Assembly (NCBI GenBank): GCA_937900875.1
Contig: CALCGD010000118.1
Location: forward strand, 1 to 39,668
Length of the DNA: 39,668 nt
Source of the DNA: an uncultured Flavobacteriales bacterium
Lineage (GTDB): Bacteria; Bacteroidota; Bacteroidia; UBA10329
Direction of reading: 5' to 3'
Part shown: piece after piece, positions 8,715 to 12,713 of the stretch
Position numbering within the stretch: the first letter of the stretch is position 1
How the letters are laid out: every line of letters begins with the position of its first letter
The notes under the pieces: model-generated
Database searches by the model: none
The model's input: the letters and a program-made list of their open reading frames with translations, nothing else
What the model was told of the DNA's origin: nothing
Position numbers and translations under genes: made by a program

Positions 8715-9692
8715 CTACCGAAGTACAATCTTTCTCGTTGTAACACCCTTGTTGGATTTAATCTGAACAATGGCCATCCCCGAAAGGCCTGCTATATCAA
8801 TCTGAATACGGTTAGTTCCGTTTGCCGTGGTAGCAGCAACTTCCTGTCCTAGGATGTCGTAAACCTTAACGACCATAATCTCCTCATCTACATCTGTAAA
8901 TGCAATCTCAATTGCTCTGTCAAATTGTCTAATTGTTAACCCAGATTCCGAGTGTTCCTGAACGCTGGTAGGTATAACTTCAGATAAGGTGATATTGTCA
9001 ACAGCAAACGATGGGTCTGAGCCTGTTCCATCATCTGCGCTAACCCACTTAAACGCAATTTTAAGGTTAGCAAGATTGTTTACGCCAGCAGGAAGCGTAT
9101 AAGAGTAATGCGTCCAAGTTCCTTGTCCGGTTGGGCAACCCAAAGCCGTTTTTGCAGGATCATTTAATAAAGCCCAGGCAGAGCCGTCAAAGTATTGCAC
9201 CAGTGCATTGTCTATTGAACCTTCTCCTCCTTCCAGGTAGTCGAATTCAAGTAAAATATTCTCAAACCCGGAACAGTCGATTGCAGGTGATTCTGCCCTT
9301 ATATCAGTTGCGGACTGGAAGCCGAAACTACCAATGCCACCAACATTGTAACTGGCACCCAAATCGGCATCCACAATAGGAAATCCCTGAAATTCAACAT
9401 AAACAGCACCAACATGTAGTGTCTGGTTTGTAAGCGATGCGTTGTCTATGCAACCTTGGCCACAAGTGCCTAATCCAGTAAAAGCTTCAGTTCCGCTAAT
9501 GTAGAATTTGTTGGAAGCGTTGTTTCCGGCAGTAAGATCAAGAACTGTCCAACTTCCGTTGGTTCCAGAATAAGCCGCAGCAAACTGACCTTGATTGCAA
9601 CCTATACCAAAGTCTTCCGTCCAAAAAGCGGTTTGAGCTGAGGCGGAAAATCCTAATGCAAGGAAAATACCGAAAGAGTAGATTGATTTCAT
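8715..9692 (-). CDS. Secreted T9SS cargo with MAM/jelly-roll-like domain
   Basis: 325 residues from ATG 9692 (MKSIYSFGIF); an upstream in-frame GTG at 9710 would put six polar residues before the signal peptide and is less likely. The signal peptide ends SASAQ. The middle part (about 25-240) looks like a choice-of-anchor J or MAM-type beta sandwich: it has paired Cys residues (GTCGQGC, DCSGF, GCPTG), a strand pattern around LLEFDYLEGG and the closing FAVDNITLSE. The last 80 or so residues are a type A T9SS sorting domain (KVYDILGQEV, then a TRKIVLR end). It is an outer-surface or secreted binding protein of unknown ligand. The gene lies downstream of lysC on the same strand. Confidence 0.8.
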   Translation of the reverse strand: MKSIYSFGIFLALGFSASAQTAFWTEDFGIGCNQGQFAAAYSGTNGSWTVLDLTAGNNASNKFYISGTEAFTGLGTCGQGCIDNASLTNQTLHVGAVYVEFQGFPIVDADLGASYNVGGIGSFGFQSATDIRAESPAIDCSGFENILLEFDYLEGGEGSIDNALVQYFDGSAWALLNDPAKTALGCPTGQGTWTHYSYTLPAGVNNLANLKIAFKWVSADDGTGSDPSFAVDNITLSEVIPTSVQEHSESGLTIRQFDRAIEIAFTDVDEEIMVVKVYDILGQEVAATTANGTNRIQIDIAGLSGMAIVQIKSNKGVTTRKIVLR

Positions 9693-9731
9693 GTTTTGAG
9701 TGTTAGACACTGAAAATATGAAATTGCATTG

Positions 9732-10985: not shown

Positions 10986-11471
10986 TTATGCTGGATATGA
11001 TTGAATTTGTTCTCTCGTAAATTTTCCGTTGAGCCATTCACCATCTAACTCAGCATTGTACTTTTTGTAAAAGCGAATGGCCGGTTCGTTCCAATCCAAA
11101 ACTTGCCATTCCATGCGGGCAGAGTTTCGCTCCTTAGCCACGGCAATAACTGCTTCAAATAACTGATGACCAATACCCATTCCTCGGCTTGCGTCTGTTA
11201 CAATGATGTCTTCAAGAAACAAGCTTCTTCCTTTCCAAGTAGAATATTTCTCATAATAAACAGCAATACCGAGTATGTCAGAATTGGATTCGGCTACAAA
11301 CAAACCGTAGATTGGGTTTTCACCAAAACCATCGTTCTCAAGTTCACCTAACGTTAGTGTCACTTCATTTGGTGCTTTTTCGTACAGGGCTAATTCTTTA
11401 ATCAGCCCAAGCACTTCAGGCAGGTCTGTTTTTCTTCCTTTTCTAACCATGAAGTCGATAGGTTCTGTCAT
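10986..11471 (-). CDS. GNAT family N-acetyltransferase (diamine/thialysine acetyltransferase-like)
   Basis: 161 residues with the GNAT fold. The acetyl-CoA pyrophosphate loop is SRGMGIGHQL at about 114-123, and a LEDIIV strand precedes it. The early ELALYEKAPNEV and late WNEPAIRFYKKYNA segments are those of the spermidine/spermine and thialysine acetyltransferase group, so a small amine is the likely substrate. Its stop directly abuts the start of the aspartate kinase gene, which points to coexpression; a link with lysine-like metabolites is speculative. A TACCTTTA box lies just upstream. Confidence 0.88.
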   Translation of the reverse strand: MTEPIDFMVRKGRKTDLPEVLGLIKELALYEKAPNEVTLTLGELENDGFGENPIYGLFVAESNSDILGIAVYYEKYSTWKGRSLFLEDIIVTDASRGMGIGHQLFEAVIAVAKERNSARMEWQVLDWNEPAIRFYKKYNAELDGEWLNGKFTREQIQSYPA

Positions 11472-11475
11472 TGGC

Positions 11476-11483
11476 TAAAGGTA
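11476..11483 (-). promoter_or_regulatory. Possible -7 box for the GNAT-lysC transcript
   Basis: On the minus strand this reads TACCTTTA, one mismatch from TAnnTTTG, five bases before the ATG. Transcription would begin at or near the start codon. The same eight-base sequence occurs on the plus strand at 11538-11545 ahead of the fbp leader. No -33 TTG is seen at the right spacing. Confidence 0.35.
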
Positions 11484-11537
11484 GAAAATGCAGGTACTTT
11501 GAGATGGTTTTAGGCACGAATGTTTAAAAAAGAAACT

Positions 11538-11696
11538 TACCTTTAACCGTTCTCAAAAAGTGAAAGAAATTCAACTTTCAATCATGAGAAACAGATAAGG
11601 CTGCTCACATCAAGAAACTCGGATAATAGAATAAGGGAAATGCGCTAAGACCTGCCTCAAGCGGGTCTTTCATTTTTTTCGTCAAATAGAGAAACC
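11538..11696 (+). promoter_or_regulatory. Structured leader region upstream of fbp (candidate attenuator or riboswitch)
   Basis: This fills most of the 225-base gap between the divergent GNAT and fbp genes. A possible -7 box, TACCTTTA, is at 11538-11545. A nested hairpin follows: TTCTCA (11550-11555) pairs with TGAGAA (11585-11590), and inside it GAAAG (11562-11566) pairs with CTTTC (11575-11579). An unpaired A/G-rich stretch (11591-11646) leads to an intrinsic terminator hairpin at 11647-11679. I see no other promoter between that terminator and the fbp ATG at 11697, so fbp transcription seems to have to pass through it. The arrangement is that of a regulated leader, or of a separate small RNA of about 130 bases. 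It matches no riboswitch class I can name. Confidence 0.45.
11647..11679 (+). terminator. Intrinsic terminator just upstream of fbp
   Basis: AAGACCTGC (11647-11655) pairs with GCGGGTCTT (11661-11669), nine pairs with one G-U, around a CTCAA loop. Seven Ts follow at 11673-11679, after a short TCA spacer. On the opposite strand there is no T tract, so it works for plus-strand transcription only. It ends 17 bases before the fbp start codon. Confidence 0.7.
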
Positions 11697-12713
11697 ATGG
11701 AAAAATTAATGTCGCTAGGCGAATTTATCGTTGATAAACAAGATGATTTTAAGTATGCCAAAGGAGAGTTGTCTAGACTGTTAAGCGCCATAGGGTTGGC
11801 AGCTCGTGTGGTTAATAGAGAGGTGAATAAGGCCGGATTGATGAAGGACATTCTTGGAGATGTTGGGGGTAAAAATGTGCAGGGAGAAACTCAAAAGAAA
11901 CTAGATGTATATGCTGACGAAGAATTCATTCGAGCACTGAAAGACAGGGGAGAGGTCTGTGGATTGGCATCCGAAGAAAAGGAAGGAGTAATCGAATTCA
12001 AATCAGGTTATGCTGTAGATGGCCAGTATGTGGTTGCTATTGACCCGCTAGACGGTTCTTCAAATATTGATGTAAATGTTTCCATCGGAACGATTTTTTC
12101 AATTTACCGAAGAACATCAGAATCTGGCCCTGCCACGTTTGATGATTTTATGCAAAAAGGAACGGAGCAAGTTGCAGCAGGCTACGTAATCTACGGTTCT
12201 AGTACCATGCTAGTTTATACTACCGGAAATGGTGTAAACGGCTTTACATTAGACCCGTCAATCGGGGCATTTTTTCTATCTCATCCTGATATGACGATTC
12301 CGAAGGACGGAAAGATTTACAGTATAAACGAGGGTAATTACGTTCATTTTCCTACTGGAGTTAAGCAATATCTCAAGTATTGTCAGGTAGAAGATGCCCC
12401 TACAAATAGACCATATACTTCAAGATACATTGGTTCCGCGGTTGCCGATTTTCATCGAAACCTTATTAAAGGTGGAATCTATATTTATCCAACCACAACG
12501 GCATCGCCAAACGGTAAGTTGAGATTGCTGTATGAAGCTAATCCGTTTGCATTTTTAATGGAGCAAGCTGGCGGACTTGCCACGGACGGTTTTGGCCGCA
12601 TATTAGAGATTCAGCCAACGTCATTGCACCAACGAACCCCGCTGTTCATCGGTTCGGAAAACATGGTTAAAAAAGCCATGTCACTTATGGAAGAACACTC
12701 ACCACGTAGCTAG
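11697..12713 (+). CDS. fbp: Fructose-1,6-bisphosphatase, class 1
   Basis: Hydrolyses fructose 1,6-bisphosphate to fructose 6-phosphate in gluconeogenesis. It is 338 residues, normal for class 1. Metal and substrate motifs are intact: the SEEK segment at 92-95 (Glu93, Glu94) and the DPLDGSSN signature at 116-123. The C-terminal region contains the sugar-phosphate-binding [17 protein letters not shown] segment and [14 protein letters not shown]. mfd follows after 18 bases without a visible promoter, so fbp and mfd are probably cotranscribed. A terminator hairpin sits directly in front of the start codon, suggesting control by antitermination. Confidence 0.96.

Follow-up and report, generated by a model that had tools for sequence, protein, structure and literature searches.

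The region at 11483-11696, directly upstream of the fructose-1,6-bisphosphatase gene fbp in an uncultured Flavobacteriales bacterium, is best explained, with high probability, as the scar left by deletion of a gene encoding a collar-like secreted protein, with fbp now presumably reached by transcriptional read-through. Gene loss accounts for the anatomy of the region. Specifically, in the window (the whole 39,668-nucleotide stretch of DNA analyzed), both ends of the collar-like gene persist, its middle is absent, and the same genes flank it as in congeners. These features are established by profile matches, by spacing, by synteny, and by the absence of the gene from the genome. The original prediction viewed most of this region (11538-11696) as a structured leader that controls fbp by antitermination, or as the source of a small RNA. 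The arrangement can be explained without a dedicated regulatory RNA, which has no positive support.

The collar-like gene and its neighborhood

The gene downstream of the scar, fbp (11697-12713, forward strand), specifies a protein carrying the Pfam FBPase N-terminal (PF00316, E=4.3e-73) and C-terminal (PF18913, E=3e-47) domains, and it is 83-91% identical in seven congeners. The left border of the locus is a divergent gene for a GNAT acetyltransferase (10986-11471, reverse strand; PF00583), placed by tblastn synteny. All five congeners with enough flanking sequence share the window's layout, with lysC and GNAT as divergent left-hand neighbors and fbp-mfd on the right-hand side. Family- and order-level searches yielded genus members only, and a search of the named genome collection yielded no member as close to the window as the congeners. 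Adjoining lysC in the window is a gene (8715-9710, reverse strand) whose secreted product has a C-terminus resembling a sorting domain. It has no tblastn match in the congener stretches compared, and it may represent another local difference in gene content.

Each of eight other genomes of the genus possesses one copy of the collar-like gene. It encodes a secreted protein of ~205 amino acids with an N-terminal NVGIGTTTP motif and a weak match to the phage tail-collar domain that falls below the Pfam cut-off (E=0.00082), and it terminates in RRFFKLAYIMKL or a near variant. In seven of the eight, fbp is the next gene downstream on the same strand, and a terminator hairpin separates the two. The contig of the remaining genome, G001, stops after the collar-like gene's terminator. 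The window's genome harbors no collar-like gene; its matches are confined to the N-terminal repeat portion of other proteins.

Linkage of a collar-domain-like gene to fbp spans two or more families of the class (loci L003-L009, L019, L020, L022, and L023). This neighborhood is conserved, and a functional link to gluconeogenesis is not obvious. In family f4, which belongs to the same class and lies outside the genus, a gap of 36-40 nt separates the collar-like gene from fbp downstream, and neither a terminator nor a recognizable promoter was found in it. Judging from this layout, the two f4 genes appear operon-like, as in a co-transcribed pair.

Remains of the lost gene in front of fbp

The upstream end of the lost gene survives as its promoter region. 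A profile built from the promoter regions of six congener collar-like genes matches the window at 11483-11552 on the forward strand (E=5.9e-9, supported by alignment), and the next best match in the window has E=0.68. Inside this match, upstream of the terminator, lies the putative -7 box TACCTTTA at 11538-11545, in line with the possible -7 box of the original prediction. The corresponding boxes of the congener collar-like genes are TATCTTTG, TATCTTTA, or TATATTTA. Promoters used by the Bacteroidota sigma factor sigma-ABfr carry TAnnTTTG at -7 (PMC7366714). The window has a box of this type, but the -33 TTTG motif was not identified there.

The downstream end survives as a decayed 3' coding end and its terminator. 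Positions 11597-11626 (forward strand) encode KAAHIKKLG*, the counterpart of KLAYIMKL* in congeners, and the congener profile that combines 3' end and terminator matches 11603-11680 with E=5.5e-10. None of 500 shuffles of 11556-11645 reached the score of this remnant. The match is significant only with the terminator included; the coding part alone gives E=6. A mid-gene profile of the collar-like coding sequence has no match in the window. The -7 box and an equivalent point in the 3' end are 660-670 nt apart in six congeners and 65 nt apart in the window, and therefore about 600 bp have been lost. The junction falls within 11553-11602 (forward strand), where ~600 bp of coding sequence are missing relative to congeners.

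The terminator (11647-11679, forward strand) matches the congener terminator profile with E=1.4e-8. Its hairpin, at 11647-11669, consists of nine pairs closing a 5-base loop, AAGACCTGC CTCAA GCGGGTCTT, followed by TCATTTTTTT, and its folding energy is -13.1 kcal/mol (z -3.1). It thus has the form of an intrinsic, Rho-independent terminator, a G+C-rich hairpin directly before a T run, and the fbp ATG at 11697 begins 17 bases past that run. Stem and tail agree with the hairpin described in the original prediction. The stem is retained in all eight aligned genomes, with 97% of cells paired, and G001, outside that alignment, has the same terminator just before its contig stops. Across the alignment, one pair has changed on both sides, which is within the shuffle range for covariation. 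To function as a terminator for the upstream gene, the hairpin needs just such retention of its stem, and as far as sequence comparison goes, the alignment backs only a kept terminator stem and supplies no evidence for a switch. Within the genome, the stem occurs once and is not a repeated family. In the congener G008 (locus L008), the stem, which lies some 80 to 40 bases ahead of fbp, is broken in its inner part and has gained an outer AATAGAGA/TCTCTATT extension, such that the hairpin is retained in altered form. In the nearest families (f44, f4, and f23), no terminator was detected ahead of fbp.

Elsewhere in the genus, the order is lysC and GNAT on the reverse strand, followed by the promoter, the collar-like gene, the intrinsic terminator, fbp, and mfd. 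In the window's genome, loss of ~600 bp, nearly the whole collar-like gene, most likely fused the promoter to the gene's 3' end and terminator. On this account, the terminator arose to end the mRNA of the collar-like gene and not for sensing. Because the assembly is a draft broken into 355 contigs, a mis-join at the deletion point retains a residual probability as an alternative.

Transcription of fbp behind the terminator

Most likely, transcription that starts at the lost gene's promoter, which we infer to be still active, reads through the inherited, leaky terminator into fbp. Incomplete termination at the hairpin would yield a non-coding stub of ~130 nt together with full-length fbp mRNA. 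Read-through past the end of the collar-like gene would serve fbp in congeners as well. It is the simplest account because, in the genus, the terminator separates the collar-like gene from fbp and, in each of eight genomes, no consensus promoter follows the terminator. In the window, no TAnnTTTG-like box was found in the 75 bases before fbp, and a scan of 105 fbp upstream regions found no consensus -7 box before fbp in the genus. This result agrees with the earlier failure to find a promoter between terminator and fbp. The absent box is only suggestive, given how often fbp lacks a consensus box elsewhere: of the 92 fbp upstream regions not linked to a collar-like gene, 12 match the -7 element under a strict pattern and 28 under a loose one.

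The same scarcity of consensus boxes in other Bacteroidota lends some weight to a different account, in which a separate, non-consensus promoter that overlaps the terminator or the lost gene's 3' end serves fbp, and neither the upstream promoter nor the terminator matters for this gene. Such a promoter is compatible with the deletion scar and competes only with the read-through step. We consider it unlikely, though not negligible: across the genus, the hairpin is the only conserved element seen between the collar stop codon and fbp, and the 36-40-nt gap in family f4 leaves scant room for a promoter.

Read-through would make the congener locus resemble operons with internal, partial intrinsic terminators, in which a terminator likewise separates co-directional genes and the downstream gene lacks a recognizable promoter. 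The genus shares this arrangement as collar-like gene, terminator, and fbp. Downstream expression in such operons proceeds by read-through, which in the genus is presumed. The window differs in that the upstream gene is deleted, and the terminator now lies in the presumed 5' untranslated region of fbp. We speculate, at low probability, that the hairpin, present in nine genus genomes and not found in the nearest families, acts as a set-point or regulated partial terminator uncoupling fbp from the collar-like gene, and that the deletion made it a 5'-UTR attenuator.

Antitermination and small RNA

Superficially, the window has the same order of promoter, terminator, and structural gene as transcription-attenuation leaders. 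In regulated antitermination, a riboswitch, a protein-binding leader, or a leader peptide would control fbp through 11538-11679. The terminator does lie between fbp and the only recognizable promoter in the window, and throughout the genus a terminator precedes fbp with no recognizable promoter after it. However, attenuation leaders have a conserved leader, an antiterminator, and a sensor domain, and the window has none of these. Its leader is a deletion junction. What precedes the terminator in congeners is no leader, being the coding sequence of another gene.

Structure within the leader points the same way. The nested hairpin of the original prediction can indeed be drawn (11549-11592, -10.6 kcal/mol), and the 12-codon GTG open reading frame is present; the junction region contains most of the former and the latter. 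Neither has a homologous counterpart in congeners; the terminator hairpin is conserved in the genus, as the 3' end of the collar-like gene. Taken whole, without the terminator, the leader (11545-11640) folds like shuffled sequence (z -0.42; 54 of 200 shuffles fold at least as well), and a leader-peptide role for the reading frame is unsupported. No mutually exclusive antiterminator pairing was detected: the best upstream pairings with the two terminator arms were matched by 57 and 32 of 200 shuffles. Rfam 15 gives no match in the window at the gathering score, and a permissive threshold adds only weak matches on the antisense strand (E 0.8 to 5). The nearest families, again, have no detected terminator before fbp. 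Dedicated antitermination control is thus unsupported, and we regard it as very improbable. Among the titles and abstracts covered on fbp leaders and on partial termination, none reported fbp attenuation in Bacteroidota.

A terminated transcript of ~130 nt, the other half of the original prediction, is expected from the retained promoter and terminator, but that it functions as a small RNA spanning about 11546-11679, perhaps a novel trans-acting RNA created by the deletion, is extremely improbable given that the region matches only itself within its own genome and that leader structure is not above chance; the junction is unique to this genome, so a homologous RNA is not expected in congeners.

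Deletion of a single gene can therefore mimic an attenuation leader, complete with promoter, structured stub, terminator, and gene. Such mimicry is a trap for predictions of leaders and small RNAs from one genome. The findings also bear on the transcription of fbp: this gene of central metabolism lies behind a terminator that is conserved in the genus.
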